Under the pieces are notes generated by a model. The model did not search any database. It saw only the letters and a program-made list of their open reading frames with translations, and was not told the DNA's origin. Below are positions 20,564-38,567 of a stretch of DNA of 64,000 bases, piece by piece (positions within the stretch are counted from its first letter, which is position 1; the number at the start of each line of letters is the position of its first letter). The stretch is from contig NZ_KB890760.1 of assembly GCF_000373245.1 (NCBI RefSeq), positions 1 to 64,000 on the forward strand, in the 5' to 3' direction. This stretch comes from Echinicola pacifica DSM 19836. GTDB lineage: Bacteria > Bacteroidota > Bacteroidia > Cytophagales > Cyclobacteriaceae. Both the position numbers and the translations under genes were made by a program.

Positions 20564-20594
20564 TATTTACCCTCGAATTACTCTATTTTACCCT
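20564..20594 (-). promoter_or_regulatory. AraC-type operator for susCD (21-bp direct repeat)
   Basis: On the plus strand, half-sites TATTTACCCT (20564) and ATTTTACCCT (20585) start 21 bp apart. Orientation relative to susC is the same as at the three other sites of this locus. The -7 box expected 36 bp on, near 20528-20535, is weak here (GTTATTTA on the minus strand). Confidence 0.7.
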
Positions 20595-20794
20595 TGTTTT
20601 ATATTTGAAAAACTGACACCTAAATAGAAATCGATAAGAGTGGGTGAATAAGGTGTTGGATGTAAAATTCTGAATTTCAATTTGTTATATAATTTTATTT
20701 TGGTGATGATTACCAGGTGGGAAACCATTCTCAGCTATTAACTGATGAGAGAATGGGTAATATAGGCCTAGAATAAGACAGGGGTAAAACCAAA

Positions 20795-20826
20795 AAGCGA
20801 TTCAAGACCTAAATCTGAATCGCTTC
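20795..20826 (-). terminator. terminator of the sulfatase-to-GH129 operon
   Basis: Ten-base perfect inverted repeat AAGCGATTCA / TGAATCGCTT. On the minus strand it is followed by TTTTTGGTTTT. It ends the operon that runs from 31266 down to 20881. Confidence 0.85.
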
Positions 20827-20880
20827 TATTTTGTGGGTTTTTTGGATGAATTTTCTTCCAGATGGAAGATTGGCAATTTA

Positions 20881-22977
20881 CTATTCCATGGTTAGTGTCA
20901 TTTGGAAGCCTCCTTTTTTGACTTTTCCATCTGCGCCAGTTACCTGGTAGCCGTAACCGGGAATACTTACACCAGTATCTGTCTTTTGGCTGACTGGTCC
21001 TAGATTCACGATTACCTCGGTACCGCTTGAGAAGGTGCTGCGCTGCAATTTGAAGTCGGCACTGAGGTATTCATGGCTTAGCAATTCGGCATAGAACGTT
21101 TCCCGATGAACTGGACTTACCAGCGCATTGGACATTTTTAGCATTTCCTTCATACCATCAAATTCATATGGGGAAAAGAAAATCGCTGAGCCAATGCCAA
21201 ATAGCATACTTTGAAGCGACTTTATTCTATAGTCACCATTGGCGGTGACCTCATTATTTGGATCTTGGATTTTGCCAAAATTGGCAATCGCATCATGATA
21301 TACCAAGCTGAATAATGGCGCTGGATGGGAAATCTCGGATAAGGGGGCATCCTCAAGATAAACCAGCCCTTCAAACATATCAAAATAAGGAATCCACTGC
21401 TCCTGGCCATGTTCAGTGCCCATGACCAGATTTAAAGATCTGAGGTAACGGGCCAAATCCCGAATCCCCTCACTTCCTTTTTCTGGAAATACAGCAAAGG
21501 AAATATCAGTAATATCTGCCTCAAGGCCTAAAGTGGCCACTTCTTTTTCTAAATTGGCACTAGCGAGAGACTTCAGTTTATCGGTGTCTACCCGCGCCCA
21601 GCGACTTCCGGTATGCTGAAGTTTGCCCTGTTCATCACGTTCCATCAGACCAATATTGATAGCAGGATCATTTTCCAATACAGGGGAGTAAGCATGGTAA
21701 GAGGAATAAAGGTAGTTGTACTTTTTGGTAAGGTCCACAGCTTCTTTTAATACCGTGGGGCCTCCCAGGTCTTCATTGATCGGCCAGCATACTGGAGCAA
21801 AATTGGAGAATACTCCCCAGGCATGAATGAAGGCGTTTTCAACTCCCAATTCATCGTGGGTGGTTCTAATAATATCCTTAAGTTCCTCAAAAGTAAACTG
21901 CATACCCGGCATATTTACATAATGAGGGTAGCCTCCATAAATCCCGACATAGATGGCGCCGGCGAGTTTATTTACATTTGGGTTGGCCTTCGCTTTATCT
22001 TCTAGGGAAACAAAGAATCCTTTAGCCTTGGCCTCTTCTCTATAGGTCTTTGCCATGGTGACATAATCGCCAGCAGGAAGAAAACGATAGGACATTTTCA
22101 TGCTGGTGTTTTCCTTCGCAAGGTTCCATACCGGATCCAGGAAAACACGTCTTTGATAAGTGGACATCTTTCCTTCAGGGTTGAAGAGGTATTGTCCATT
22201 ATTATTGATATTATAAAACATATCTGGACGAGAGGACTCATCTAGGATGACCATTACCGCAGATTTTTCATTATAGGTACCCCACCAAGGCATGGTCAAC
22301 CCTGTGCCATTATTGAATAATTGTAAGGTGCCAATGGACTTATTATTATAAGTGGCATCATCCCATTTGCAAAATCGACCACCATTCATCGGGAATATAT
22401 ACGAAGGGCTGATTATGCCTTGTTTCTGTGGGATCACTGCCGCCCCCCTGTCCACATCAGTTTCCAGGCTGAAATGCCTTGCTGGATACCTAAGGTCAAC
22501 TAGCTGATAACTGCCCGCTTCCACGTCAGTAATCTCTATGTCCAGACCAGCGGTGCTTGGATTTAAGCTTAGCTTTACCCCGACTTTTGCCCCTTTTGCA
22601 AGGTCCCCATTGTCAAATACGGGCTCGGAAAATTCAATGCTGATGCTGCCATCTGCTTTTTCCTGTACATTTATCGCCTTGCTTTTTGATAAATTTAAGG
22701 TTTGCCTCTTGCCTTTTTTATCGGTTATAGTCAGCAGTCCAGCCGCATTTTCCCATGGATCAGGGATCCATTCTTGCCCTGTTGTTTTTTCCAAAACGGA
22801 GAAATTTCCTGACGTATCGTCGATGGTGACCTTTATCAGTTCATTCTCCAAGATTTTTAAAGCGATATTTTTGATTTCTCCCGTGGACTCAGCCTTGGAG
22901 GAAGCATAGATACTGATGGACAGAAGCGCTATGGCTATCCATGTGAAGGCATGTGAATTTTTGATTTTGGTTTTCAT
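20881..22977 (-). CDS. secreted GH101/GH129-like glycosidase
   Basis: Predicted exported glycoside hydrolase. A signal peptide (about residues 10-29) is followed by a beta-rich, mutarotase-like N-terminal domain, an alpha/beta barrel and a C-terminal beta domain. Candidate catalytic residues are Asp488 in GLEADITD and Glu522 in VMGTEHGQEQ. Their order and 34-residue spacing resemble the nucleophile and acid/base pair of GH101/GH129. GH129 members in the Zobellia carrageenan system release 3,6-anhydro-D-galactose from the non-reducing end, and this gene sits with the same partners (GH127, S1 sulfatases, dau genes). Last gene of a six-gene operon. I recognise the fold class by motif and context only; a DUF5696-type annotation is also possible. 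Confidence 0.65.
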   Translation of the reverse strand: MKTKIKNSHAFTWIAIALLSISIYASSKAESTGEIKNIALKILENELIKVTIDDTSGNFSVLEKTTGQEWIPDPWENAAGLLTITDKKGKRQTLNLSKSKAINVQEKADGSISIEFSEPVFDNGDLAKGAKVGVKLSLNPSTAGLDIEITDVEAGSYQLVDLRYPARHFSLETDVDRGAAVIPQKQGIISPSYIFPMNGGRFCKWDDATYNNKSIGTLQLFNNGTGLTMPWWGTYNEKSAVMVILDESSRPDMFYNINNNGQYLFNPEGKMSTYQRRVFLDPVWNLAKENTSMKMSYRFLPAGDYVTMAKTYREEAKAKGFFVSLEDKAKANPNVNKLAGAIYVGIYGGYPHYVNMPGMQFTFEELKDIIRTTHDELGVENAFIHAWGVFSNFAPVCWPINEDLGGPTVLKEAVDLTKKYNYLYSSYHAYSPVLENDPAINIGLMERDEQGKLQHTGSRWARVDTDKLKSLASANLEKEVATLGLEADITDISFAVFPEKGSEGIRDLARYLRSLNLVMGTEHGQEQWIPYFDMFEGLVYLEDAPLSEISHPAPLFSLVYHDAIANFGKIQDPNNEVTANGDYRIKSLQSMLFGIGSAIFFSPYEFDGMKEMLKMSNALVSPVHRETFYAELLSHEYLSADFKLQRSTFSSGTEVIVNLGPVSQKTDTGVSIPGYGYQVTGADGKVKKGGFQMTLTME

Positions 22978-23012
22978 ATGTTTTTAAGGCTATTTTCTTG
23001 TTTTGGTAAATT

Positions 23013-24482
23013 TTAATTTAACTCATCCAGCAAATGGCTTTCTCCCTTTTGGTCTTTGATAAGCAGGGAAACCTTGCTGGATGGTATTTCTGTAAATTCA
23101 TAATCAATGGATACAGGCTTTAATGGGCTTATTCCCTTTGCCAAAACGATGTCCTGTGTTTTGCCTGAGGCTTCCAGGACTCTAAGGATCATGTCTCCCG
23201 CGACAAAAACTCCGTATTTTCCATTTATAGTTTTTTTGGCTTGATCCCAAGATAATTTTTGGGTGATGATTCCCGCCATATTGACCTCCAATACTGGCGT
23301 TCCATAAATCTTTGCTGCTCCCTGGATTTCCTTATAATCGAAATGCTCCCCTGGTTTCAGATCATAAAGTGGTGTTTTCACCTCTGTTTCGATATATCCA
23401 GTTTCCAATCCGCTACAAAAAATAGCAGCATTGGTTCCGTCCTCGTAATCTAGGTCAGGATCGTAAGGTTCCATGATTTTTACAAATGCAGTATTATTGG
23501 TCTTGTTTACATAGCATAACCAAGCTTCGGAGGCGACCATATGAAAGCCACTCATGAGCTCATAATCATAGTGAATCTCAAAAATCCCAGGCGCCACTTC
23601 CCCAGTCCAATTAGTGCCATGATTATGGTATTTTTTTACATCCTCAGGATTATCCTTATTGAGGGGCTTTATGTTTCTGTTTACATAATTCCACCGACTT
23701 TCGGCCGTGCCCATGATTTCATACTGCTCTCCATTTGGTAATAAGTATTTGGAATCAAATGGAACGTAAGCAAGGAAGTTTTCTCCATCGTATAAGCCTG
23801 GTTTACTTTCTGAGACATGCTGACTGGAGATCATAATCCCTCTTTTTACTGCTTGGTTACCGACATTTTCTAGGCGGTGATTGATGAATACCAAGCTGCT
23901 ATGGTCTTGAATCTTAAGCATACGGCTATAGCGAAGGGACTCATCGATTTCCTCAGGGAGTATGTATTCCCCGGTTTTATAGTTAAACTGCGGGACAGGG
24001 AGGTCCTGGACTCCAGAGATGACGAGAATGTTTTGGTCCCCTTTTTTATCGGTTACGATACTTGCCGAATAGGGGTTATCCCCAATGACCGCTGGTGGAG
24101 GCCATCTGTTTGACCTGCCGCCATCCTGAGTGATAGCGGTAGTATTGATCGGTAGGGGCACCAATCGGTAACCACCAAAATTTCTCCAATCCTCTTTTTT
24201 TACCAACTCATTAGGAGGAAATTCCTTCCCAAAGAGCTTGGGGTTTACCCAGAGCGAAGGTGTATCGCCAAGATTATACTCCAATACCCGGCCAGCAGCT
24301 TGAGGAACCACCGCCACGGATATAAAATTATTTTTGGCTACAAATACACTATCCCAGCCCCAGCTATTATAATTATGCTCTACGGATATCATCCTTTTTT
24401 CCTGAGAAAAAACCGCTGAACTAGCCGCAAACAGTAGAATCACTACGCTGGTAAAGGTGAAATAGATCTTTAATATCTTCAT
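23013..24482 (-). CDS. secreted protein of unknown function (DUF4380-like, mutarotase-type fold)
   Basis: Function not known. A signal peptide (about residues 5-26, ending VFSQ) precedes a beta-strand-rich protein with repeated Gly, Trp and Asn turns (NSWGWDSVFVAKNNFISVAV; VPQAAGRVLEYNLGD; HNHGTNWTGEVAPGIFEIHY). This resembles the galactose-mutarotase / DUF4380 supersandwich that occurs in many carbohydrate-active proteins. It is 489 aa, lies between a sulfatase gene (12-bp gap) and the GH129-like gene (35-bp gap), and is clearly in the same operon. It is therefore a candidate enzyme or epimerase acting on the same oligosaccharide in the periplasm. Confidence 0.6.
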   Translation of the reverse strand: MKILKIYFTFTSVVILLFAASSAVFSQEKRMISVEHNYNSWGWDSVFVAKNNFISVAVVPQAAGRVLEYNLGDTPSLWVNPKLFGKEFPPNELVKKEDWRNFGGYRLVPLPINTTAITQDGGRSNRWPPPAVIGDNPYSASIVTDKKGDQNILVISGVQDLPVPQFNYKTGEYILPEEIDESLRYSRMLKIQDHSSLVFINHRLENVGNQAVKRGIMISSQHVSESKPGLYDGENFLAYVPFDSKYLLPNGEQYEIMGTAESRWNYVNRNIKPLNKDNPEDVKKYHNHGTNWTGEVAPGIFEIHYDYELMSGFHMVASEAWLCYVNKTNNTAFVKIMEPYDPDLDYEDGTNAAIFCSGLETGYIETEVKTPLYDLKPGEHFDYKEIQGAAKIYGTPVLEVNMAGIITQKLSWDQAKKTINGKYGVFVAGDMILRVLEASGKTQDIVLAKGISPLKPVSIDYEFTEIPSSKVSLLIKDQKGESHLLDELN

Positions 24483-24494
24483 CGATAGGTGGGT

Positions 24495-25934
24495 TTACTT
24501 AATCTTGAATGTGTCATTAAAAGTGGCCATGTTTTTATCCTTCCATATTTCCTCAAGTTCCAGCGGGGTAAACCACTGGGGTTCGGCATTTGACTGGCTC
24601 CATTCTTCTACTTCCTTCACCATTTCCTTAAGCTTTTCGGGATATAGTTTACTTAAGTCATACACTTCACTTTTATCTAAGACAATATTGAAGAGCTCCC
24701 ATTTTTCTCCTGATTTTAGTGCCTTCCACTCGTCTTTTCTGGCTCCGATATCGGTATATCCTTCCCAATGTCTTAAGGTATAGATCATATCATTTTGGTG
24801 AGGATTTTTTCCAGACATTAAGTCCCCCCATATATTTTTACCATCGATTTTTTTGCCCTGAGGCAAGGCTTGTTGGGCAAGAGCGGCGAAGGTAGGATAA
24901 AAGTCAATCGCTGAAACCGGATGGTCAAATAGCTCACCTTCGGCAATATGTCCCGGCCAATGGAAAAACATAGGCACTCGATACCCGCCTTCATGGGTGC
25001 TTCCTTTTCCTTCCTGCAAAGGAAAGTTGGTGGCTCCATGCTCTAGATTGCCGCCATTATCACTCAGAAATAAGATCAAGGTATTTTCGTATTCACCGGT
25101 TTCTTTCAAGGTGGCGATCAAGTCTTTTACCCCTCGATCCACCGCATAGACCATGGCCGCATAGGTCTTTCTATCTTCATCTTTAATCGATGAAAAAAGC
25201 GCTAAATCCTCCTCTTTTGCTTCTAAAGGGACATGTGGTGCATTATAAGATAGGTAAAGGAAAAAGGGCTTGTCCTTCCTGGCCGCTTCCTTGACGAATA
25301 CCCTCGCATGATTGGAAAGTGCATCGGTCAGGTATTCCTTAGGATAGATGTCCACCCCGTTATGCTCAAGTGGTTTGAGGTAATCCCAAATTACTTCTAC
25401 ACCTTTTTCCTTTTGAGCTTTGTACCTGGGCTCATATTCCTCAGGATGATAATTATGCCCTCCTCCCAGAAAACCATAGAAATCATCAAATCCACGTTCG
25501 TTGGGATGGAATTCTGGGTTTGCACCCAAATGCCATTTGCCAACTATCCCAGTATAATATCCCGACTGCTGCAGGACTTTGCTGATAAAGGTTTCCTCCA
25601 ATGGGATCCCTTTGCCGATAGTCTCACTATTGGGGGGCAGGTTAAACTGAGCACCATATTCATGAGGATATCGACCGGTCATAAATGCCGCTCTACTGGG
25701 ACCACAGAATGGATGAGCGACATAGCCCGAGGTCATAATAGTTCCCTGGCTGGCCAGAAGGTCTAAAGTGGGAGTCTTAATATCCTGGGATCCGTTGAAG
25801 CCCACATCTGAATATCCAAGATCATCACATAGGATCACGAGAATGTTTGGCCGCTGGTCCTGTGCATAGGATTGACCTAAGGATAAAGCTAGAAGCGATA
25901 AGAATAGGAAGAAATGACGATTATAAAGTTTCAT
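24495..25934 (-). CDS. family S1 sulfatase (formylglycine-dependent)
   Basis: Exported sulfatase that removes sulfate esters from a carbohydrate. Counted from the ATG at 25934: signal peptide to about residue 24 (QSYAQ), metal-binding Asp37-Asp38 in ILCDDLGYSD, the activation motif Cys77-Gly-Pro-Ser-Arg81 with Cys77 converted to formylglycine, GKWHLG near 140 and SDNGG near 300. The reading frame extends upstream to 26006, but the ATG at 25934 directly precedes the signal peptide and lies 8 bp after the GH127 stop. Carrageenan sulfatases of Zobellia belong to several S1 subfamilies; which one applies here cannot be told by eye. Confidence 0.88.
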   Translation of the reverse strand: MKLYNRHFFLFLSLLALSLGQSYAQDQRPNILVILCDDLGYSDVGFNGSQDIKTPTLDLLASQGTIMTSGYVAHPFCGPSRAAFMTGRYPHEYGAQFNLPPNSETIGKGIPLEETFISKVLQQSGYYTGIVGKWHLGANPEFHPNERGFDDFYGFLGGGHNYHPEEYEPRYKAQKEKGVEVIWDYLKPLEHNGVDIYPKEYLTDALSNHARVFVKEAARKDKPFFLYLSYNAPHVPLEAKEEDLALFSSIKDEDRKTYAAMVYAVDRGVKDLIATLKETGEYENTLILFLSDNGGNLEHGATNFPLQEGKGSTHEGGYRVPMFFHWPGHIAEGELFDHPVSAIDFYPTFAALAQQALPQGKKIDGKNIWGDLMSGKNPHQNDMIYTLRHWEGYTDIGARKDEWKALKSGEKWELFNIVLDKSEVYDLSKLYPEKLKEMVKEVEEWSQSNAEPQWFTPLELEEIWKDKNMATFNDTFKIK

Positions 25935-25942
25935 ATCAAGTA

Positions 25943-27949
25943 TTAATTTATGTTCCACACTACCGGCAAAAACACGCTCATCTCCGCCTGCCCCCGGTTG
26001 CTCCAAGAGAAGTAAGGGACCATTTTGGTTTTGATGGGAGTAAATGACGGTTTAGAAATAGACCCGTAAAGGGTGCTTTGTTTATTATTACGTACCAATA
26101 AAGAGCCTTCTAGCGTACAGAGTCCTCCCAGGAAATCAGGTTGAAATACTGGGGTCCACTGCGTGTCGGCGCTGATATATACATCGAGAATTGAGGTGCT
26201 TTTTGGCAAATCTGGTGATTCAACACAATAGACTATTGGTCCTCGCTTCAGTGCAATATGGTTTCTAACCTCTTCGATCCTTGGGTGACCTTCCATTTGG
26301 CAGATTTCCATGGGTAAATCTAGACCGATGTGGTCTCCAGCTTTCCATTTTCGCAGTATTTTGCAGTAGGTGCCGGCCTTGCAGCTTTCTTCCCAAAGCT
26401 CACCATTGATACGTAGAGAAGCTCCCTTTGCCCAGTCAGGAATCCTGAAAGCGATTTCAAAAGCAGCCTCTTTGCATTTTTCTAGGCTTATATTAATTAG
26501 CCCCTCCCAAGGATAGTTTGTTTCCTGGACCAAATGTATCTCAGTTCCATCCTGCAACTGGCTATCTAGTCTATTGCTGCCATAGAGGTTTACCGCCAGT
26601 CCCTTTTCGGATAAGCTATAAGCCCAGTTGGAGAAGTTGGCAATAGTCCTTACCAGATTTGGAGGGCAGCAAAAACAGGCCAAATAGGGTTCGCGATTGG
26701 GGGTTTCCGTGACATTTTCATGAGAATGGTAATCCCGCGTATCATTTACCATTCTTAGCGGATTGGAATAGAAGTACTCTTTTCCCGAATCGCTGATGCC
26801 CACCATACCACTGTTGAACATCACCAATTCGATGATATCGGCATATTTGGACTCCCCATGGATCCCTAACATCCGATAGCTGAACATGGCATTGCAGAGG
26901 TTAGCGCAGGTTTCGTTATAGGCCGTCAGGTTGGGCATCATATACCCATCGATAAAGCCCTCCTCGATCATATCTCTATTGCTGGAAGCACCATAATGCG
27001 CCTGACCTACCGCACCCGTCAGATACATTTTTTGCTCGGTCACATTTTTCCACAGCTTATCCAATGCCTCTATAAGCGCTTTTTCTCCAGTCTCTGCATA
27101 GACATCAGCGGCTCCTGCATAATAATACAAAGCCAAAACGGCATGCCCCACCGCTTCCTCAGATTCTCGCAGTGGCAGTCGTTCCTGCACCATATCACCG
27201 ATGGGATAGCCTTCTGTGGTGGCGTTATGCTCCACTTTATACTTTCCTCGATTATTGATAAATTTCTCAGCTAGCTGCAGGTATTTCGATTCGGAGGTCA
27301 CCCGATAGAGATCCACCAAGCCCATAATTTGAGTTTGGTTGAATCCAAATCGAGCCAAATGATCATTTTCCGGCATAAATAAGCTATAGAGCAGGTCCGC
27401 CTGCCGTAGGGCGATATCCAGAAAATTCCTTTGGCCAGTGATACGATAATGGATACAGGCACTGATCAGCAGGTGCCCCGTATTGTACATTTCATGGTAC
27501 TTTCTGTTTTGGTACCGACCCAGTTCTTCCCGGAGCTGGATCTGGGTTTGTAAGTACCCATCCTCTTCCTGCGCCTTGCCGATTATTCGGATATATTCAT
27601 CCAGCTCCTCTAATAGCTGTGGCGATTGCCGGATGGCATAGACGTAGCATTTTGCCTCCATATACTTATAGAAGTCTCCATCGTGCCAGTACATGCCTTG
27701 ATGTTCTCCAGTCTTTTCTCCCGCAGCAATTTTGAAATTATTCAACGCATGACCCACGTCTCCGCAGAGCAGCTCTCCCATATAGGGAACCATGGTATCC
27801 GTCGCCTTCTGGAATTTATCCGCCCAGAAGCCCTTCGTCCATCGGCTGTGCCCAATAGGCAGATTCCTAAATTTGACATAGCCACTAGTTGGAGATAATG
27901 TAGGTTCTCTAAACCCTGTCATTTCTGTATTTCCAATTTTATTGCTCAT
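25943..27949 (-). CDS. GH127-family glycoside hydrolase, cytoplasmic
   Basis: GH127 enzyme with an alpha/alpha toroid and C-terminal beta domains. From ATG 27949 (668 aa): Glu346 and Cys348 in YNETCA, and Cys427-Cys428 in CFCCPPN, match the zinc and nucleophile set of Bifidobacterium HypBA1 (Glu338, Cys340, Cys417, Cys418). Glu330, 16 residues before Glu346, sits at the position of its acid/base Glu322. There is no signal peptide, so it is cytoplasmic. Founding members are beta-L-arabinofuranosidases, but in carrageenan loci GH127 proteins are 3,6-anhydro-D-galactosidases, which fits this operon. The ATG overlaps the TGA of the MFS gene (ATGA), implying coupled translation. The frame is open upstream to 28201 but lies inside the MFS gene there. 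Confidence 0.88.
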   Translation of the reverse strand: MSNKIGNTEMTGFREPTLSPTSGYVKFRNLPIGHSRWTKGFWADKFQKATDTMVPYMGELLCGDVGHALNNFKIAAGEKTGEHQGMYWHDGDFYKYMEAKCYVYAIRQSPQLLEELDEYIRIIGKAQEEDGYLQTQIQLREELGRYQNRKYHEMYNTGHLLISACIHYRITGQRNFLDIALRQADLLYSLFMPENDHLARFGFNQTQIMGLVDLYRVTSESKYLQLAEKFINNRGKYKVEHNATTEGYPIGDMVQERLPLRESEEAVGHAVLALYYYAGAADVYAETGEKALIEALDKLWKNVTEQKMYLTGAVGQAHYGASSNRDMIEEGFIDGYMMPNLTAYNETCANLCNAMFSYRMLGIHGESKYADIIELVMFNSGMVGISDSGKEYFYSNPLRMVNDTRDYHSHENVTETPNREPYLACFCCPPNLVRTIANFSNWAYSLSEKGLAVNLYGSNRLDSQLQDGTEIHLVQETNYPWEGLINISLEKCKEAAFEIAFRIPDWAKGASLRINGELWEESCKAGTYCKILRKWKAGDHIGLDLPMEICQMEGHPRIEEVRNHIALKRGPIVYCVESPDLPKSTSILDVYISADTQWTPVFQPDFLGGLCTLEGSLLVRNNKQSTLYGSISKPSFTPIKTKMVPYFSWSNRGQAEMSVFLPVVWNIN

Positions 27950-29511: not shown

Positions 29512-29565
29512 GGACAGCTTTTGACTTTAGAATAATAATAGGACTGCTAAATGGGATAGATACGT

Positions 29566-31266
29566 TTAGAATAAATCCTGACTAAGTTGCTTTAGCATTT
29601 CTTCCACTAGACCGGGGACGGTATCTGCTATATTGACGGTCTCAGAGCCATCGTTTTGATGATCATAGAGCTCCACAAAGATGGGCCGCTCCTGTGGTGA
29701 CCTGCGGTCTTTCCATGCCACCATCCGGTACCTATCCGTTCTCATGGCATAGCCCATTAGGTGATTTTCAAATAAATCCCGATCCCATTTATCTTTTTGC
29801 TGTTCTTTTATTCGTTCCTCTACTTCCTGTATCAAAGGGCCAAAATAAGTCTCCCGCATCCCTTGAGAAAGTGGGTTCGCCGCCCACTCCCGCAAAGCAG
29901 GCGTGGGAAATTGGCTATAGGCAGCCGCCTTCCAGGGAAGATCTGGCTCGCTGAGCAGGGGGACAAAACTCTGACCTTCTACATGGTCTGGTATAGGCAA
30001 ACCCGCTAATTCTGAAAGTGTGGGATATAAATCGATAAGCTCGACCAAGGCATCCGTATGCCGCCCTCTATTCTTTTCCTTCATTGTAGGGCTCCACACG
30101 ATCAGTGGCACGCGAGTCGCGATTTCATAATTGGTTGCTTTTCCCCAAATCCCCATTTCTCCCAGGTGCCATCCATGATCGCTCCAGATCACGATGATCG
30201 TATTGTCTCGCAGACCAGACTCCTCCAGAGCAGCGATCACTTTCCCTATTTGTGCATCTACATAGCTGACACTTGCCAGATAGGCATGCTTTAGGCTGAG
30301 GGCTAAATCCTCGCTAATTGGGCCTTCTTTGGGGATTCCATAGCGCACTCGGAGCTCAAAAGAAGGATGGATCCCCATCGCTGCTCCATCCAGGGGAGGG
30401 GAGGTTTGGGTGGAGAGTTTGATGTCTTTTCGGTCGTATAAGTCCCAGTATTTTTTAGGCACTGCCCAGTTCAAATGGGGTCTATAATAACCTAGCCCCA
30501 TAAAAAACGGCTTATCACTCGTCGCAACGAGGTCCTTCATCGTGGCTATAGCCAGCTCAGTATCGTATCCATCTTCATAGGTATTGTCCGGCACATCTGC
30601 ACTTTCAAAGGCTGGACCATTGCCGAGACCGCGTTTTGCCGCATCTCCATACCGGGCTATCATCTCTGCCTTATATTTTCTGAAAATCTCCTGGTTCTCC
30701 GCCAAGGCATAGCCTCCGATCAACTGAGGTTCCTTTACCTCCATTTTGTCTTTTGCCGGGCGTCTGTTCCATGATAATTCCGGATCATTATATTCCCCAT
30801 GGTATATTTTACCAATATTCACCGCCTCATATCCGTTGTTTATAAAATGCTGAGGAAGGGTGATGATATCAGGGTTAAGATCACGGAAATAAGTGTAGTT
30901 TTCGACCACACCGATCGTTTCCGGTCTAGCACCTGTCATTACACTGGCTCGGGAAGGACTGCAGATTGCCTGCTGGCAATAGGCCCTTTCAAAAAGAATT
31001 CCCTCTGCAGCCAGGGCGTCTAAGTTTGGCGTGACGGCTATCTCAGAACCGTATGCTCCCAATTCCGGCCTAAGGTCGTCTATGGCGATAAAGAGGATAT
31101 TGGGCTGAGTACCCTGAGCGTGCAGCGGTCCTGCCAGACTAATATATAGAAGCAGATATATAATTAAAAATGGTTTTGCGGGGGCAATTAAATGCTTCTC
31201 CTTCAGAAGACTAGTCGTCCTCAATTTTTTATCTTCTACTCCAGTAGCATTGATATGAATCTTCAT
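29566..31266 (-). CDS. family S1 sulfatase (iduronate-2-sulfatase-like)
   Basis: Exported formylglycine sulfatase. A long N-terminal extension and hydrophobic signal (about residues 30-50, ending LHAQ) are followed by metal-binding Asp63-Asp64 in IAIDDLRPELG, the activation motif Cys102-Ser-Pro-Ser-Arg106, IGKIYHG near 152 and WSDHGWHLGEMGIWGK near 337. The DDLRPELG and DHGWHLGE motifs are those of iduronate-2-sulfatase-like enzymes (S1_7), a class that also occurs in the Zobellia carrageenan locus. First gene of the operon ending at 20881, with an operator pair about 226 bp upstream. Substrate is inferred to be a sulfated galactan oligosaccharide. Confidence 0.88.
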   Translation of the reverse strand: MKIHINATGVEDKKLRTTSLLKEKHLIAPAKPFLIIYLLLYISLAGPLHAQGTQPNILFIAIDDLRPELGAYGSEIAVTPNLDALAAEGILFERAYCQQAICSPSRASVMTGARPETIGVVENYTYFRDLNPDIITLPQHFINNGYEAVNIGKIYHGEYNDPELSWNRRPAKDKMEVKEPQLIGGYALAENQEIFRKYKAEMIARYGDAAKRGLGNGPAFESADVPDNTYEDGYDTELAIATMKDLVATSDKPFFMGLGYYRPHLNWAVPKKYWDLYDRKDIKLSTQTSPPLDGAAMGIHPSFELRVRYGIPKEGPISEDLALSLKHAYLASVSYVDAQIGKVIAALEESGLRDNTIIVIWSDHGWHLGEMGIWGKATNYEIATRVPLIVWSPTMKEKNRGRHTDALVELIDLYPTLSELAGLPIPDHVEGQSFVPLLSEPDLPWKAAAYSQFPTPALREWAANPLSQGMRETYFGPLIQEVEERIKEQQKDKWDRDLFENHLMGYAMRTDRYRMVAWKDRRSPQERPIFVELYDHQNDGSETVNIADTVPGLVEEMLKQLSQDLF

Positions 31267-31455
31267 ATTAGTAATTATTTTGGGTTCAATGATTGGTCAA
31301 GTGATCCAGTAACGGCCTTGTCAATTGCCTCACCACCTCATTTATAGATTATGAATAAGCAGAATCCCTAAGTAGTCAAATGGTATAATTCCACTTGTTT
31401 TTCACCTCTCTCAATGTGATTTCGGTGGGTTATCCGACTTAATCAATCTCTATTA

Positions 31456-31522
31456 CAAAAGAGCCGTAAAATTCAGCCCTCCTGTTTGTGGATTTTACCT
31501 TGGTATTACACTATTTTACCTT
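31456..31522 (-). promoter_or_regulatory. AraC-type operator and promoter of the sulfatase operon
   Basis: Two identical half-sites ATTTTACCTT (plus strand, 31492 and 31513) start exactly 21 bp apart. A minus-strand CTCTTTTG at 31456-31463, keeping the TTTG of the -7 box, lies 36 bp from the proximal half-site start, the same distance as at the transporter-dau promoter. This is the cleanest of the four repeats in the locus. Confidence 0.75.
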
Positions 31523-31540
31523 ATTCGCCTAATAGGCAAA

Positions 31541-31569
31541 ATAAAAGGCCCAGAATGCTATCCGGGCCT
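31541..31569 (-). terminator. terminator of the transporter-dau operon
   Basis: Inverted repeat AGGCCC (31546-31551) / GGGCCT (31564-31569), followed on the minus strand by TTTATTTT, shortly after the aldolase stop. Confidence 0.75.
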
Positions 31570-31599
31570 CTTACTACTCACTTTGGTTCCAATTAAGTG

Positions 31600-32250
31600 T
31601 TACTGTATTTGATTATATAAGGCTTCTGATCTGATATGTCTGAAATGCCGCTCAAGGCCTACCAAGTCCTCCATTTCTATTAACTTCTTGTCAAATAGGG
31701 AACTTCCCATGCCAACGCCTATTGCCCCTGCTGCAAAGAAGGAGCGGATATTGGAGGCATCAACGCCTCCAGTAGGGAGCAATTTGATTTGGTTCAATGG
31801 GGCTAAAATATCCCTGATATAAGTAGTCCCTAATTGAGTGGCGGGAAAGACCTTTACCGCTGATGCCCCTGCGGACCAAGCTAGATGGATCTCAGTAGGA
31901 GTGAAGGCCCCTGCAAATACCGGGATTTTTAGCGCTACACATTGTTGGATTACGGCCTTGTCCACTATGGGGGTGACTATAAACTGGGCACCTGAATCAA
32001 TCGCTATATCCAAATCTTCCATGGTGCAGACAGTGCCTGCCCCTATATTAAGATCTGGAAAGGTCTGCCGGAGCAGATGGATCATCTCTGCCGCGGAAGG
32101 GCTGTTCATCGTGATCTCCAAGGTCGTAAGGCCTGACTGGGAATAGACCCTTGTAATATCGGTCAGCAGCGAAGGAGCCATGCCTCTCACAATCCCTATA
32201 ATTGGCGCCTCATAGAATTTTTCCCAGGAAAATGTCTCAATATTTTTCAT
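31600..32250 (-). CDS. 2-keto-3-deoxy-6-phosphogalactonate/gluconate aldolase (DauD/DgoA-like)
   Basis: Class I aldolase of the KDPG/KDPGal family, splitting the phosphorylated keto-deoxy sugar acid to pyruvate and glyceraldehyde 3-phosphate in the cytoplasm. Glu45 in TTLEITM, the GAGTV motif near 70, the Schiff-base Lys133 in SAVKVFPA and the phosphate-binding LLPTGGVD near 157 are visible. Length (216 aa) is normal. It overlaps the kinase gene by 14 bp, so the two are translationally linked. The DgoK-type partner kinase favours the galacto (KDPGal) substrate. Confidence 0.9.
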   Translation of the reverse strand: MKNIETFSWEKFYEAPIIGIVRGMAPSLLTDITRVYSQSGLTTLEITMNSPSAAEMIHLLRQTFPDLNIGAGTVCTMEDLDIAIDSGAQFIVTPIVDKAVIQQCVALKIPVFAGAFTPTEIHLAWSAGASAVKVFPATQLGTTYIRDILAPLNQIKLLPTGGVDASNIRSFFAAGAIGVGMGSSLFDKKLIEMEDLVGLERHFRHIRSEALYNQIQ

Positions 32251-33190
32251 ACAATCCCATTAGTTTACGTTGACCAGTTAAAAAGGCCTTTTCGAGTGCT
32301 TCGCCATCTAGCAATACTAATAGCTCCTGAGGAAATAAATAATTAAGGGCTAGAGCATAATTTTCGAACATAGGACTAGAGGCCGCAAGCACGATTTTTT
32401 CTTTATAAGATTTGAGATGGGAGAGTTCATCGCCAATCAATATCCCACTCAAATAGCTGTAATTTAATTCCTTACTCTGCTGGCTTAAGACCTCCTTGGC
32501 TCGCACTGAAAATAAAGAGCCCGTAAAGCCATTTGTGAAACCTAGGCTAAGTCCTTCCTCAAAAGTAGCCTGCGTCTGTGGATTTAAGGAGGTAGCCTGC
32601 ACCGATGTTTTTAGAATACTATTCAAGGTGAGCAATTCGAACAGCTCCCCCGTCATATAAGTGCTGAAATCCGTGAACACTTCCGAAACATATCGAATAT
32701 GCTTGCTGTGTGTGCCAGGGAGGATCAAGGTCGCCTCGGAGAAGGTCTTTAAGGTCTCTTCTAAACCCAGCGCCTGAACTTCCTCGCCTCTCATCATTCC
32801 ATCTTCACTCTTCACTCCAGAAATTAATAATAAGTCCAAGCCAGAGGCTGTTTGGAGTAGGGTTACTGGCAGCTGGTCCCCGGAAGCCGCAAAGGGCAAA
32901 CTGGCATAAGGGAGATCGATAAGACCAATATTGGAGGTGATCATCCCAGCAGCGATTACAGGGACTCCTATTGGGTCTATGGGCAACTTATTTATTTGGC
33001 TCGCCAAAAAACAAGAAAAATACGTTTCCCTGTTGAGCTCACGTTGCTTCATAAATTCCTCATTGAGGACCTTGATACCCACGGGGGCTTGATGCTGGGC
33101 GAGGACCTTCAGTGATTTAGTTTCCACCAGCCTTAGCCTTAAATTCGTGGTTCCCCAATCACAGCTGATGAAATAAGCAGAAGTTTCCAT
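32237..33190 (-). CDS. 2-keto-3-deoxygalactonate kinase (DauC/DgoK-like)
   Basis: Cytoplasmic kinase of the DgoK family, making 2-keto-3-deoxy-6-phosphogalactonate. Visible features are the N-terminal phosphate loop ISCDWGTTNLRLRL (residues 8-21), GVPVIAAGMITSNIG near 97, ATLILPGTHSKHI near 156 and a C-terminal GEALEKAFLTGQ. It is DgoK-type (galactonokinase), not the PfkB-type KdgK, which points to D-galacto chemistry and so to 3,6-anhydro-D-galactose rather than the L-form from agar. Its ATG follows immediately after the aldehyde dehydrogenase stop. Confidence 0.88.
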   Translation of the reverse strand: METSAYFISCDWGTTNLRLRLVETKSLKVLAQHQAPVGIKVLNEEFMKQRELNRETYFSCFLASQINKLPIDPIGVPVIAAGMITSNIGLIDLPYASLPFAASGDQLPVTLLQTASGLDLLLISGVKSEDGMMRGEEVQALGLEETLKTFSEATLILPGTHSKHIRYVSEVFTDFSTYMTGELFELLTLNSILKTSVQATSLNPQTQATFEEGLSLGFTNGFTGSLFSVRAKEVLSQQSKELNYSYLSGILIGDELSHLKSYKEKIVLAASSPMFENYALALNYLFPQELLVLLDGEALEKAFLTGQRKLMGLYEKY

Positions 33191-34636
33191 CTAAATAATA
33201 GCTTTGGTTACCCGCTTTCGGATGAGGTAATCGTCCAGGGCATAGGAGGAACAATCCACGCCGATGCCGCTATTCTTTATCCCTCCATGTGGAAGATAAA
33301 TATCGAATTTCAACCCATTGAGGTGAACTTCCCCAAACGCCAGCTTCTCGGAGAAGAATTCTAAGAAGGACTTATCTTTGGTGAAGACATAGGAGGCCAA
33401 ACCTGCTTCTGTACCATTGGCATATTGCAATACTTCCTCCTTAGTGTCAAAGGGGATGATGATGGCAATAGGTCCAAAGATCTCCTCTTGTAATACTGGA
33501 GCCTCTGCATTGTCCATCCTTATTATCGTAGGTTGAAAATAAAAGCCCTTAGTGTCCGGGGCCTTTCCGCCATAGACTAATTCTCCTCCTTGCTGCAGGG
33601 CCATGTCCACTATTGAGGCTGCTTTTTTCACTGAGGCCTGATTGGCTAGAGGGCCCATCTGAACAGCATTTTCTCTTCCAAAACCAATTTTCGTCGTGCT
33701 GAATTTTGCCTTTATCCCCTCCATAAATTCATCAATTACAGAGGCATGGATATAAAAACGATTGGGAGCCACGCAAATCTGCCCCGCATTGCCCGTTTTC
33801 AAAGCCGCTCCGATGGCTATCGCTTGATCCATATCCGCATCCTCAAAAACAATAAAAGGAGCATTTCCCCCACATTCCATGCTATAGCGTTTGATGGAGG
33901 TTTTGCAGCTTTGCCCAATGAGCTTTTGCGCCGTTTCGGTGGAGCCTATCATCGTTATTAATTGAGGAATTGTGCTTTCGCAAAGTGGCTTTCCTACATT
34001 TTCCACCGATCCACATAGCACATTGATTACTCCTTTAGGAAAGTCGATTTCATCGCATATCTCTCCAATGATATAGGCCGATAGAGGAGAGAATTCAGAT
34101 GGTTTGATGATAATGCTGCATCCAGAGGCTAGGGCTGGGCCTAGCTTAAAGCCGAGGTTTAGCAAGGGGAAATTATAAGCTAAAAAAGCCACCACCACCC
34201 CAAGAGGCTGGGATACGAGGCTGTGCTCATGAGTCCCTTCCTTATCCGGGATGGGCACATCTTTCTTTTTTTTGATTTCTTCTGTGTAATAGGCCAGGGA
34301 ATTGGTCAGGCTCGTAAGGTCTTCCTCAGTTCCTTCCCATACTTTTCCCATCTCATACATGATACTCTCTCTGAGTCGATCTCCGTAGTGCAATATTGCC
34401 TTGCGGAGTTTCCCGATCCACTCCAACCGCTCCTCCAGAGGCAGGGTGGACCAATAGGCAAAACCACTCTGCGCATACTGCAAGGTATCCAGGCTGTCTT
34501 GCTTACTCGCCCAGGCAATGGTGGCAATAGGCTCTTCTGTGCCTGGACATATAACTTCAAATTTCTCATGGCTTGAGGAATCTCTGAGTTCACCGCCCAG
34601 GTATAATTTTTTATGACCGAATTTCAAATTTTTCAT
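33191..34636 (-). CDS. aldehyde dehydrogenase (DauA-like)
   Basis: NAD(P)-dependent aldehyde dehydrogenase, proposed to oxidise 3,6-anhydro-D-galactose to the aldonate. The active Cys is in GNAGQICVAPNRF and the general-base Glu in YSMECGGNAPF; the Rossmann part shows VAFLAYNFPLLN and IIIKPSEFSPLSA, and LQEEIFGPIAII is the usual C-terminal motif. Length is about 481 aa from the ATG at 34636, which overlaps the end of the upstream enolase gene by 26 bp; an ATG at 34654 is an alternative. Cytoplasmic. The aldehyde substrate is inferred from the neighbours only. Confidence 0.88.
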   Translation of the reverse strand: MKNLKFGHKKLYLGGELRDSSSHEKFEVICPGTEEPIATIAWASKQDSLDTLQYAQSGFAYWSTLPLEERLEWIGKLRKAILHYGDRLRESIMYEMGKVWEGTEEDLTSLTNSLAYYTEEIKKKKDVPIPDKEGTHEHSLVSQPLGVVVAFLAYNFPLLNLGFKLGPALASGCSIIIKPSEFSPLSAYIIGEICDEIDFPKGVINVLCGSVENVGKPLCESTIPQLITMIGSTETAQKLIGQSCKTSIKRYSMECGGNAPFIVFEDADMDQAIAIGAALKTGNAGQICVAPNRFYIHASVIDEFMEGIKAKFSTTKIGFGRENAVQMGPLANQASVKKAASIVDMALQQGGELVYGGKAPDTKGFYFQPTIIRMDNAEAPVLQEEIFGPIAIIIPFDTKEEVLQYANGTEAGLASYVFTKDKSFLEFFSEKLAFGEVHLNGLKFDIYLPHGGIKNSGIGVDCSSYALDDYLIRKRVTKAII

Positions 34637-35780
34637 TTTCTTCTGGGGTTTCATTGTCAATGTATTTTTCGAGGGAATCCATGCATACTTCCACGCCAAG
34701 TCCGGGGGAATTAGGGACTTGAATCAGCCCATTTTCTAGTTTTACCTGATGTAGCGTGACTTCGTCCCGCAGGCTATTTTCGGTTCGGTCTAGCTCCAGC
34801 ATGGGCCTTCCGTTATACATCCTTCCTGGGTTTTTGTCCAGATTTGCCACAAAATGGATAGCAGCACTGATCGCAATCCATGTTCCCCAGGTATGAGGGA
34901 CTAGGTCTTTGTTAAAAGCCTGAGCAAGGGTGGCGATTTTTTTAGCCTCAGTGAGTCCTCCCGCGGCACATATATCAGGCTGTACAATATCCACACTCTC
35001 ATTTTCGAGCAGTCTTCTGAAGCCGTATTTTAGGTACTCACATTCCCCACCTGCGATTGGGATGCTGGTATGGTCTCTCATTCGCCTGTACCCTTCATAG
35101 TCTTCAGGAGAGACGGGTTCCTCAAACCAGCTGATGGAATATTGCTCTACCTGTCTGGCGAGTTCAATAGCTTCTTTATAACTATAGGCGTGATTGGCAT
35201 CGATCATCAGTTTCATTTCGGGCCCAATAGCCTTCCGGACACTGGCCACATTTTTAATGTCCTGCTCGAGGCCTAGCCCCACTTTCATCTTGGTGGCGCG
35301 GAAGCCTTGCGATTTGTACATCAACGCTTCTTCGGCTAAGGTTTGAGAAAGATTATCCACTCGGGTGAAGTACAAACCAGTAGCGTATGGCTCAATAATA
35401 GGATTCTTTACCCCCCCAAGTAATACCGAAACCGGCTGATTCAAGAGCTTACCTTTGAGGTCCCACAGTGCCACATCGATGGCACTTATTGCCGCTTGCA
35501 AAATGCCACTTCGTGCATAATCCATAGATCTACGGTACATTTCTTCCCATAAAATCTCATGCTCCAGGGCCGATTTCCCAAGAAGAAAAGGCTTGAAAAA
35601 ATCAATCCCTGCCTTCAATACATGCGCAGGCCCATATCCTTCTCCCCATCCATAGGTGCCATCATCCAGGGTGATTTTTACTATGCATATCTTGCGCGTA
35701 TCGTATTGCCACTGCGAAAAATAGAAGGGTGTATCTAATTTTTGGCTTATTACAAAGGGTGTTATTTCAGCAATTTTCAT
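34611..35780 (-). CDS. enolase-superfamily enzyme, probable 3,6-anhydro-D-galactonate cycloisomerase (DauB-like)
   Basis: Mandelate-racemase-subgroup enolase enzyme. The catalytic set is complete: Lys164-x-Lys166 in ATKMKVG, metal ligands Asp194 (LMIDANHAY), Glu220 (WFEEPV) and Glu246 (IAGGECEY), and His296 (LVPHTWGTW). Length is 389 aa, cytoplasmic. Acid-sugar dehydratases (galactonate and others) and the anhydrogalactonate cycloisomerases both belong here and cannot be separated by eye. Flanking GH127, GH129-like, sulfatase, DauA-, DauC- and DauD-like genes favour ring opening of 3,6-anhydro-D-galactonate to 2-keto-3-deoxygalactonate. Second gene of the operon, 65 bp after the RhaT-like gene. 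Confidence 0.82.
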   Translation of the reverse strand: MKIAEITPFVISQKLDTPFYFSQWQYDTRKICIVKITLDDGTYGWGEGYGPAHVLKAGIDFFKPFLLGKSALEHEILWEEMYRRSMDYARSGILQAAISAIDVALWDLKGKLLNQPVSVLLGGVKNPIIEPYATGLYFTRVDNLSQTLAEEALMYKSQGFRATKMKVGLGLEQDIKNVASVRKAIGPEMKLMIDANHAYSYKEAIELARQVEQYSISWFEEPVSPEDYEGYRRMRDHTSIPIAGGECEYLKYGFRRLLENESVDIVQPDICAAGGLTEAKKIATLAQAFNKDLVPHTWGTWIAISAAIHFVANLDKNPGRMYNGRPMLELDRTENSLRDEVTLHQVKLENGLIQVPNSPGLGVEVCMDSLEKYIDNETPEENEKFEIRS

Positions 35781-35845
35781 TTTAAAAATTTTAAAGTATT
35801 AATCAAATATTCAGTTCCAACGGAGAGTCTTATCACCCTATAATT

Positions 35846-36859
35846 TTAGTGATAGTTGGAATATCCTAGCAGACAAATGGCGCCAATCAAAACGGCTAGC
35901 CCCATCAATAATTGGGAAAATGGCTTTTTAGCATTGCTCCATTCACCAGCTCGGTAAGCCCATATATTGCTTATGATCAGTGCCAGCCCCAGTAATATGG
36001 GCCAGCCAATCACAGGCCCCAAGGCCCCCATCAATGCGGCACCCTGCCCGTAAACTCCCAGAGCGGCGAACCAGAAGACGCCTGATATAATCGCCCATTT
36101 ATAAGCCTGTTTGCTGGACTTTACCTGGAATGAGCCCCATGATTTATTCTTGAACAGCAGATAAATGGAGTAACCTGCATTCATCAGAAATGCCCCTAAT
36201 AAAACGACCACCCAAGCAGCCAAGCTTGCATTTTGGGTGCTGGCGCCATGCATTTCGGCAGCCTTAATGATAGGACTAGCATTAGAAAAACCCACATTTA
36301 GCAGGGCTGAAAGCACCCCCGAGGTCACTGCAATCAATATCCCCTTGCGGCTTGATTTGCGGCCTTGCCCACTTTCATGGCTTTGTAGAATCTTATCTCT
36401 ATTGATGCCCGCTATTGCGGTGATCAGCACTCCAATTAGTAATAATCCCACTCCAATTAGAATGAATGGAAAGGAGGCTTGTTCCGTAAAATCGTTGATA
36501 TAAAACAAGGGAAGGACGGAGCCTACTGAAGCCGCTAGGCCCATGACGATCCCATAGGTGATGGATATTCCAGTATATTCCACACTAATGCCGAAAAGAA
36601 TCCCGCCTATGCCCCAGAGAAAACCAAAGAGCATGGAGAAGAAGATAACCGATACCGAGACAGAGGCTATAGCCGTCCATAGATCTGGAACCACCGCCAA
36701 GGCCCAGCCTATGGGTAGCAGTATCATGGCGATGAAGGAATAGACCAACCACCAGGCTTCCCATTTGAGGGGTGAAATATGTTTCATTCCCAGTCCGAAA
36801 GTTCCTTGGAAAAAACTGGCGAACAGTACTAAAGCAAAGGCTATAACATAAGTATCCAT
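35846..36859 (-). CDS. RhaT-like sugar:proton symporter
   Basis: Inner-membrane transporter with about ten hydrophobic helices. The N-terminus QGTFGLGMKHISPLKWEAWW and the following segment match the L-rhamnose-proton symporter (RhaT) family, which in Bacteroidota has members of other specificity. The ATG at 36859 is used (337 aa) rather than a TTG eight codons earlier. It is the first gene of the transporter-dau operon, so 3,6-anhydro-D-galactose or a related monosaccharide is a reasonable guess for its cargo. Confidence 0.8.
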   Translation of the reverse strand: MDTYVIAFALVLFASFFQGTFGLGMKHISPLKWEAWWLVYSFIAMILLPIGWALAVVPDLWTAIASVSVSVIFFSMLFGFLWGIGGILFGISVEYTGISITYGIVMGLAASVGSVLPLFYINDFTEQASFPFILIGVGLLLIGVLITAIAGINRDKILQSHESGQGRKSSRKGILIAVTSGVLSALLNVGFSNASPIIKAAEMHGASTQNASLAAWVVVLLGAFLMNAGYSIYLLFKNKSWGSFQVKSSKQAYKWAIISGVFWFAALGVYGQGAALMGALGPVIGWPILLGLALIISNIWAYRAGEWSNAKKPFSQLLMGLAVLIGAICLLGYSNYH

Positions 36860-37029
36860 ACTTTGATCGATATCAGAAACCAAGTCGATTTGCGCAGGAG
36901 GATTCCCGTATCTATTGGTCTTTTGGGTTTTAGATTGTTTTTAGAGACTGGCTGATATATGCTTAGTCCCGGTAAGCAATGAACTCTGGGCTATGCCTAC
37001 TCCAGAAATGCTCCCATTGATTACCTCTA

Positions 37030-37096
37030 CAAAGAAAATGGATTGAAGGCCTTTGCTATTGATAGATTTTAACCCGTGCTTACCGTATTTTACCCT
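37030..37096 (-). promoter_or_regulatory. AraC-type operator and promoter of the transporter-dau operon
   Basis: Plus-strand half-sites ATTTTAACCC (37066) and ATTTTACCCT (37087) start 21 bp apart. A minus-strand -7 box TTTCTTTG (one base off TAnnTTTG) lies at 37030-37037, 36 bp from the proximal half-site start. The leader to the ATG at 36859 would be about 160 nt. Confidence 0.7.
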
Positions 37097-37143
37097 GTTT
37101 TGTATTGCTTAGGTCAAATAAGGAATATACACTGATATAAATT

Positions 37144-38472
37144 TTATAAGCCAAAAAATAGAAGGATGAATACCCCAATAAGGCCCGAAAGGCCCATTAC
37201 CAATGACTGGAGGGTATAAGTACGGTAGAGCACCTGTGGGGGCACCTGATGGAGTCGATTCAATAGCCAAAAAAAGCTTGAGTTGGCATGGAATACACAG
37301 AAGGATCCACAGCCAATTAGTGCAGCGGAGATTTCGGGTGACACTGGCAATGTGGAGGCTATGGGCCCAATCATAGAAGCGGTGCCCACCAGAGAAACCG
37401 TGATCGATCCTGTGGAGGTCGTCAATATAGCCGCTATAAAAAATGGTAATAAAGCTCCCAGTAGTGGGGAGTCAGAAAATAAGGAAATGAGTTCATTTTG
37501 GACTCCTGTGGCTCGAATAACCTGTCCCAATGCACCACCCGCTCCCGTAATCATGATCACTAGTGCGGATTTTATAATGGCTTGCTCCACCATTTTGTTT
37601 AAGCTGGATTGGCTAACTTTCCTGATATAGGTATAGGCCGCTATGGCCGCTCCGATCAGCACAGCGACCATAGGAATGCTTAGGAAATTGAGTGCTGGGC
37701 TTATAAAATGGGCGGTATCTGTTGGTATTAAGGACCCTAGGCCAATTAGGAGAATAGGGATAATGATCGGCAGAAGGTCAAGGAATATAGATTGATTTTT
37801 TTGATGAGTAGAATCGGGAACTTGTGAGTTTTGCTGCGTTTGCAGAGTCTGGTCATAGGGAATCCAGGACTTACTGCAAAAATAGATCACGAAAAGAATG
37901 CCCCCAGTCATCGCAAATAAAGCAACAAATAGATTAATCAGAAGCATATTCCCAATCTCCACTCCCATGAGTGAGGCTACTGCCATGGGCCCGGGAGTGG
38001 GAGGGATCAGGGTATGGGAAACCGTGAGGCCTGCGGTCAGCGATAAGGCGATGTACAGAACTGGCTTTTTTATTTTTCCCGAAAGGGACTCCACCACCGG
38101 CTGCAGGAGAATATAAGCTACATCCACAAATACTGGAATGGACACGATATACCCCGTCATACCCATGGCCCAGGGAAGCTTTTTTTTGCCCACCCAGGAG
38201 ACGATTCTGGATGAAATGCGGAAAGCTCCACCCGTCTCCTGCAAAACTTCCCCAATAAAGGCTCCCAATATCACGATAATAGCGATCCAGCGAAGGGTAT
38301 CTCCAAAACCTTCGAGGAGAATAGTGATGGTCCCTTCTCCTCCCAAACCCATGGTGAGCCCTAGGCCAATGCCAGTCAATAGCAAAGCTACAAAGGGATG
38401 TACCTTCCATTTAGAAATGGAAAATATCAGGAGAACTAAAAATAGAATAAGTGTTAGGATAGGGATGCTCAT
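37144..38472 (-). CDS. GntP-family sugar-acid:proton symporter
   Basis: Inner-membrane permease of the gluconate family with about twelve to fourteen helices. The motifs SIPVFVDVAYILLQPV near residue 110 and TAGLTVSHTLIPPTPGPMAVA near 146 are typical of GntP/GntT. Length is 442 aa. Monocistronic between the AraC gene and the transporter-dau operon, with its own operator. Family members move gluconate-like aldonates, so it may import aldonates formed outside the cytoplasm, or anhydrogalactonate; this is inference. Confidence 0.88.
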   Translation of the reverse strand: MSIPILTLILFLVLLIFSISKWKVHPFVALLLTGIGLGLTMGLGGEGTITILLEGFGDTLRWIAIIVILGAFIGEVLQETGGAFRISSRIVSWVGKKKLPWAMGMTGYIVSIPVFVDVAYILLQPVVESLSGKIKKPVLYIALSLTAGLTVSHTLIPPTPGPMAVASLMGVEIGNMLLINLFVALFAMTGGILFVIYFCSKSWIPYDQTLQTQQNSQVPDSTHQKNQSIFLDLLPIIIPILLIGLGSLIPTDTAHFISPALNFLSIPMVAVLIGAAIAAYTYIRKVSQSSLNKMVEQAIIKSALVIMITGAGGALGQVIRATGVQNELISLFSDSPLLGALLPFFIAAILTTSTGSITVSLVGTASMIGPIASTLPVSPEISAALIGCGSFCVFHANSSFFWLLNRLHQVPPQVLYRTYTLQSLVMGLSGLIGVFILLFFGL

Positions 38473-38501
38473 CTGTTCGGTTATTTTGGATGGTGACGGA
38501 T

Positions 38502-38567
38502 CAAATTAAATAAAACTTACAAATTTGATTCGCTGGAAATTACCCATCCTTACCTCTATTTTATCCT
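38502..38567 (-). promoter_or_regulatory. AraC-type operator and promoter of the GntP gene
   Basis: Plus-strand half-sites AAATTACCCA (38537) and ATTTTATCCT (38558) start 21 bp apart; the proximal one is degenerate. A minus-strand -7 box TTAATTTG (one base off TAnnTTTG) lies at 38502-38509, 35 bp from the proximal half-site start. Transcription would begin about 20 nt before the ATG at 38472. Confidence 0.65.

Follow-up and report, generated by a model that had tools for sequence, protein, structure and literature searches.

Direct-repeat operators of a probable CgrA-type AraC regulon in a carrageenan-type locus of Echinicola pacifica

Each monomer of an AraC-family regulator carries two helix-turn-helix (HTH) motifs. 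At araBAD of E. coli, AraC binds half-sites arranged head to tail at a distance of about 21 bp, and the proximal half-site extends into the -35 region. Direct repeats with a 21-bp periodicity have also been described for AraC-family rhamnose regulators, including those of Bacteroides, in passages of PMC3870299. The closest described system is the carrageenan regulon of Zobellia galactanivorans (ZGAL_3145-3159 and distal genes, with the regulator CgrA), as presented in the relevant parts of PMC5698469. Section 8 of that paper reports that deletion of cgrA in Zobellia results in a lag and reduced growth on carrageenans. The window considered here, that is, the whole analysed stretch of 64,000 nucleotides of contig NZ_KB890760.1 from Echinicola pacifica DSM 19836, contains a locus that matches this cluster in gene content and order, with an AraC gene in the same place. 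Four of its transcription units are preceded by a direct repeat. From the motif, its spacing, the promoter register, conservation and gene content, all of which are observed, we infer that these repeats are very probably the operators bound by a CgrA-type AraC activator encoded at 38587..39456, which would act by class II activation with 3,6-anhydro-D-galactose or its product as the inducer.

The comparison with the described systems reveals both likenesses and differences. Relatives of Zobellia share the window operator before the same units, and the Bacteroidetes carrageenan-utilization core, as defined in part of PMC5698469, has homologs of all nine kinds in the window, cgrA being matched by position and not by orthologous clade. 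The Z. galactanivorans regulon differs in that the window AraC is about 36% identical to CgrA and falls in another clade, and in that the window susCD lies inside the cluster. E. coli AraC has DNA-binding and sensor folds related to those of the window AraC, according to a structure search of the model, but another half-site, sigma factor and inducer. The rhamnose regulators treated in passages of PMC3870299 likewise differ in regulator, half-sites and sugar. No CgrA operator is described in the passages of PMC5698469 that mention promoters or binding sites, nor in its sections 8, 9 and 11, and no description of this operator was found among the open-access papers listed, subscription papers and supplements being outside the scope of the search. 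The AraC-type regulon is real and conserved; it is ordinary in kind and new in identity.

The four operators, like all other window features given below, lie on the minus (coding) strand. The operator of susCD occupies 20564..20594 (proximal half 20564-20573, distal half 20585-20594), that of the sulfatase-MFS-GH127-sulfatase-unknown-dagB operon 31492..31522, and that of the rhaT-dauB-dauA-dauC-dauD operon 37066..37096. Each of these three is recovered by half-site, genome and position weight matrix (PWM) scans. The operator of gntP at 38537..38567, the weakest of the four, is recovered by half-site, strict-pattern and PWM scans. All eight half-sites are AGGGTAAAAT-like, with starts 21 bp apart within each pair, which bears out the similarly oriented repeats that a sequence-only reading had placed at 20564/20585, 31492/31513, 37066/37087 and 38537/38558. 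The mismatches to the consensus, proximal/distal, number 2/0 at 20564, 1/1 at 31492, 2/0 at 37066 and 3/1 at 38537; the distal half is thus the better conserved at three sites, as the same reading had it. Within the window, half-site pairs with at most three mismatches occur three times at spacing 21 and at most once at every other spacing from 10 to 40. The 31-bp motif, when allowed three mismatches in the organism's own genome (5.44 Mb, 22 contigs), has three matches, at 20564, 31492 and 37066, with none outside the locus. The strict pattern has four matches in this genome, three of them at the locus, and its control two. Equally good repeats are rare elsewhere in the genome and do not lie in comparable places.

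The fourth strict match (G000:C13:762126) was considered as a member of the regulon and rejected, as its PWM score is not above 0. At this position (G000:C13:762126-762153, L001:1501-1528) a direct repeat of GGTAAAA, spaced at 21 bp, is flanked by an AraC-type gene, at its end, and by the gene of an MFS transporter that is 35% identical to the window MFS protein. It is perhaps the operator of a paralogous regulator. The claim of one operator per transcription unit has to be restricted to the four catabolic units, as motif and PWM scans of the window find no operator of this kind upstream of the AraC gene itself. Autoregulation of araC through this operator was rejected, since a site is absent upstream both of the window gene and of the regulator genes of four Zobellia relatives.

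For comparison with other genomes, loci anchored on dauB were taken from named records, the best 80 of 109 relatives being used. The PWM was trained on 20 sites of Flavobacteriia picked for few mismatches, none from the family of the window genome; 18 of these come from 12 of the 80 loci, so that matches there are not independent, and the other two are distal Zobellia sites. Held-out support is provided by the window, by Algoriphagus oliviformis, by nine of nine held-out loci of the Zobellia group and by the TTTG register, which is absent from the PWM. When both strands of the window are scored, the four operators rank first to fourth (39.2, 26.8, 24.5 and 18.7), with the next score at 4.8. 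The maximum was 15.3 over 30 local shuffles and 16.9 over 200 column-permuted PWMs, and site 38537, at 18.7, is therefore only modestly above the controls.

The operators stand in a nearly fixed register to the promoter. The predicted -7 TTTG lies at 31456..31459 for the sulfatase-MFS-GH127 operon, at 37030..37033 for the rhaT-dauB operon and at 38502..38505 for gntP. The last G (31456, 37030 and 38502) and the lower-coordinate end of the proximal half are 35-36 bp apart, the distance that the sequence-only reading had given for three sites. In the susC promoter, TTTA takes the place of TTTG in this register (20528..20531), both in the window and in A. oliviformis. Over a set of 58 sites, the distance from the end of the -7 TTTG to the start of the proximal half-site is exactly 46 nt in 49 and 45-47 nt in 54, two distal Zobellia rows having been placed one base off and reading 47. 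In a set thinned by the author's choice to one site per genus and operon, TTTG stands at 45-47 nt in 28 of 30 sites, and at 46 nt in 26, as opposed to 2.1% in shuffles. Both sets, of 58 and of 30 sites, had been assembled by means of the motif itself. Of the two exceptions in the thinned set, one is the susC promoter of the window and the other a sulfatase promoter of Maribacter; each carries TTTA in the TTTG register. The -7 box is taken as -12 to -5, following part of PMC9723704, and the operator would therefore span about -71 to -34. With promoter positions predicted from the fixed TTTG distance, the operator adjoins or overlaps the -35/-33 region. The class II-like placement proposed earlier gains support from this nearly invariant distance.

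A composite pattern of half-sites and TTTG gives a similar picture. At spacing 21 it has 56 matches in 21 loci and 28 matches in 13 loci, the latter group including three loci with no AraC in the flank that were assigned there by the author; at other spacings from 16 to 27 there are 0-9. At the observed TTTG distance the two groups have 56 and 29 matches, and 0-9 at other distances. The other 46 loci have 21 matches, equivalent to 2.5 per 100 kb versus 13.1 and 10.3 in the two groups. Over all 80 loci the pattern occurs 103 times on the dauB strand versus twice on the other.

Inner boxes can be recognized within the operator, the column counts resting on sites chosen by motif. All 30 thinned sites have G at offsets 2 and 23. 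A middle box, TG at offsets 12-13 (T in 24/30, G in 29/30), lies one turn beyond the distal half-site; past the proximal half-site, at offsets 36-37, there is a weaker AA box (22/30 each). Four boxes about one turn apart would fit, as expected, two AraC monomers with two HTHs each. Under the proposed mechanism, two monomers would bind head to tail at a distance of 21 bp, equal to two helical turns. In each monomer, the two HTHs would touch two subsites about one turn apart, giving the order GGnTAAAAT, middle TG/GTAA box, GGnTAA and weaker AA box. The proximal monomer would substitute for the -33 element and recruit sigma-A RNA polymerase to a TTnnTTTG promoter, as in class II activation. As inducer, 3,6-anhydro-D-galactose or one of its products is the most likely candidate, and the sugar would thus turn on jointly the genes for uptake (susCD, gntP, rhaT), those for desulfation and cleavage (sulfatases, GH127, dagB) and those for catabolism (dauA-D).

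The repeats are conserved upstream of orthologous operons, as a comparison of orthologous loci reveals. Over the 80 loci and two distal Zobellia stretches, half-site pairs with at most three mismatches number 28 at spacing 21, versus 0-5 at other spacings from 11 to 40. In Zobellia, Arenibacter, Cellulophaga and A. oliviformis the operator stands ahead of the same operons as in the window. A. oliviformis (G332/G400, L064) belongs to the same family as the window genome, Cyclobacteriaceae, and has nearly the whole locus at 56-86% identity, with all four operators present. A further genome, G212, has kept one, that of the rhaT-dauB-dauA-dauC-dauD operon, and its second dauB locus has no site at three mismatches. 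G212 also has a second AraC copy (L054:3627-4482), 62-64% identical to the window AraC, with the match split over two reading frames.

The relatives of Zobellia allow the operator to be set against published expression data. Genome-wide, at up to three mismatches, 16 of the 20 matches in four Zobellia relatives lie in front of one of four units, namely rhaT-dauB-dauA, GH127, a sulfatase and a susCD pair, the last two being distal. The remaining four lie away from the expected units, and the two of these that were inspected are both inside genes. By the composite pattern, gntP has a weaker site in all four relatives, and there is no site at cgrA, dauC, dauD or dagB; sulf1, which was placed in three of the loci, has no site there. 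In each genome the window SusD finds its closest match, by a wide margin, in the distal SusD, at 49% identity in three (E 1e-162 to 1e-165) and at 44% in the fourth (E 7e-132); the next best match is at E 6e-36. According to Table 1 of PMC5698469, RNA-seq of Z. galactanivorans shows induction by 3,6-anhydro-D-galactose of ZGAL_181, 3145-3150, 3155-3158 and 3580-3581. Those parts of the paper report no induction by this sugar of ZGAL 3151-3154, 3159, the carrageenases 236, 1973 and 4265, or 3629-3638. The operator distribution in the four relatives agrees unit by unit with this induction, and the operator is absent from the tested non-induced cluster genes; the sites in this comparison come from relatives of Z. 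galactanivorans only, with gene numbers carried over by synteny and homology.

Over 12 genomes the motif has 53 matches versus 8 for the reversed control. Eight matches outside carrageenan clusters in other genomes were inspected; one precedes a susC-like gene, two are intergenic before unrelated-looking genes, and the rest lie in or against genes. An operator-like site before a susC-like gene occurs in Kriegella aquimaris (L186, G398:C19:100447), on a contig that also carries a Zobellia-type regulator some 14 kb away and that is different from the contig of the dauB cluster. In the Zobellia relatives (L174-L177), the distal operator-bearing sulfatase gene is divergent to that of a 1304-aa protein resembling a hybrid two-component sensor, as judged by length and N-terminus only.

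The window AraC is predicted to consist of a beta-rich sensor domain and a double HTH (mean pLDDT 82.4), and the AraC-type double HTH with a sensor domain is supported by both the family scan and the model. Its closest solved structures by E-value are full-length family members at a TM of about 0.3, their domains being arranged differently. Domain by domain, the matches include AraC-type DNA-binding domains, with a TM as high as 0.91 of the target, as well as the RhaR regulatory domain (0.61). In a tree of 83 rows, the window AraC falls in a clade of 13 rows (100/100) with those of A. oliviformis, G212, Flavivirga, Hyunsoonleella, Algibacter, Flavobacterium, Tamlana and Seonamhaeicola. The Zobellia type forms a separate clade of 17 rows (100/100). 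Another 17 rows make up a third lineage, which groups with the Zobellia type at weak support (87/70), and the three lineages together are supported at 99/96. A hidden ortholog of the window AraC was sought in 10 Zobellia-type genomes and not found (best 35-38%), nor was a Zobellia-type ortholog found in the window genome or in A. oliviformis (best 35-40%).

The 16 loci of the third lineage have the same spacing and TTTG register with drifted half-sites. Their 15 composite matches all lie on the dauB strand, with none on the other; nine precede an aldehyde dehydrogenase or dauB homolog, and one is inside a gene. Five Wenyingzhuangia/Ochrovirga-type loci, with regulators that branch outside, have no composite match; the 'third' group in the composite count pools these five with the 16. 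The PWM reaches at least 14 in nine of nine held-out loci from genomes with a Zobellia-type regulator and in none of the five Wenyingzhuangia/Ochrovirga-type loci. The retention of spacing and register in the third lineage favours an old architecture, kept while the proteins diverged, over convergence. It is moderately likely that several Bacteroidota families have retained one operator-promoter geometry in their carrageenan and anhydrogalactose regulons, a head-to-tail repeat of 21 bp with the -7 TTTG at 45-47 nt from the proximal half-site. The regulator would have split into lineages about 36-40% identical, two reading the same half-site and a third with the same geometry and drifted half-sites, and the presence of the operator would predict genes, near or distant, that respond directly to 3,6-anhydro-D-galactose.

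Several observations weigh against the assignment of the four repeats to a CgrA-type activator. The gntP sites are weak, with a PWM score of 18.7 in the window and 7.3-18.3 in the four Zobellia relatives. The window AraC lineage reaches a PWM score of 14 in only 4/10 loci, although it has a composite match in 10/10, and loci with no CgrA-like gene in the flank also score (4/29, one of the four being in the training set). The identity of only about 36% to Zobellia CgrA and the separate clades are the reason why the protein is called CgrA-type and not CgrA. At three mismatches, moreover, the reversed control pattern likewise matches three places in the own genome. The evidence is therefore the location of the matches in front of operons and not their number. 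The control count is also what speaks for chance or AT-rich sequence bias as the origin of the repeats, an explanation left with almost no probability by the location, the ranking across classes, the spacing, the promoter register, the strand bias and the conservation.

The identity of the binding protein and the sign of its action can be questioned in turn. Another protein with an AraC-type HTH, either a hybrid two-component sensor or an AraC paralog, might read the sites, the neighbouring araC being incidental. The own genome has four further AraC-family matches (E up to 1e-25), and the 1304-aa sensor-like protein of the Zobellia relatives is encoded next to an operator-bearing sulfatase. 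This proposal is nevertheless very unlikely, as the occurrence of the operator follows, from one genome to the next, the two regulator lineages found at these clusters, the sole matching araC gene of the window adjoins the sites, and the deletion of cgrA affects growth of Zobellia on carrageenan in the account of PMC5698469. The growth on carrageenans was impaired by that deletion (same source, in the part cited), which also argues against a protein that binds here mainly as a repressor, or in a dual role as E. coli AraC does, and whose repression the sugar lifts. The operator is predicted to end at about -34, upstream of the -7 box and at a constant distance from it, which fits activation. 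Members of the AraC family are known to act in both ways; even so, repression as the main role, or a dual role, is judged highly improbable here.

Under the CgrA-type activator reading, a carrageenan regulator known through genetic work gains a predicted operator. The same reading makes of the published list of 3,6-anhydro-D-galactose-induced genes, some of them far from the cluster, a testable direct regulon, and it offers a signature by which unlinked carrageenan genes can be sought in marine Bacteroidota. The locus is also a tractable case of an operator that was kept while its regulator diverged.

The genes of the locus comprise sulfatases, GH127, DagB-like, DauB-like, aldehyde dehydrogenase, kinase, aldolase, RhaT-like and GntP-like transporter, susCD and AraC genes. 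The AraC gene (38587..39456) probably starts at the ATG at 39447, as in relatives. It is followed by the GntP-family permease (37144..38472) and the RhaT-like symporter (35846..36883), both assigned by family scan. The dauB-like gene (34611..35780; 3,6-anhydrogalactonate cycloisomerase, enolase superfamily) and the dauA-like aldehyde dehydrogenase gene (33191..34699) have the solved relatives 5olc and 6pnu, with probable roles by homology. The dauC-like kinase (32237..33190) is assigned by gene order and homology to Zobellia loci, with no NCBIfam match at 1e-3, and the dauD-like 2-keto-3-deoxy-6-phosphogalactonate aldolase (31600..32250) by NCBIfam scan.

The second operon begins with a sulfatase (29566..31266) that shares 65% identity with the distal sulfatase of Z. 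barbeyronii, the one that bears an operator. An MFS-type sugar transporter (27946..29511) homologous to that of the Zobellia loci, a GH127 protein (dagA-like, 25943..28201) and a second sulfatase (24495..26006) follow, the last two assigned by family scan. The dagB-like gene (20881..22977) has the solved relative 5opq, a '3,6-anhydro-D-galactosidase'. The susC-like gene (17127..20357), the start of which is uncertain, encodes a protein 49% identical to the distal Zobellia SusC, and the susD-like gene (15405..17114) was assigned by the SusD search. Between the second sulfatase and dagB lies a gene for a protein of unknown function (23013..24482, 489 aa), which has no Pfam match at 1e-3 and was not found in the A. 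oliviformis locus. Homologs of this protein at 48-55% identity occur in the carrageenan-type loci of G212 and Flammeovirga.

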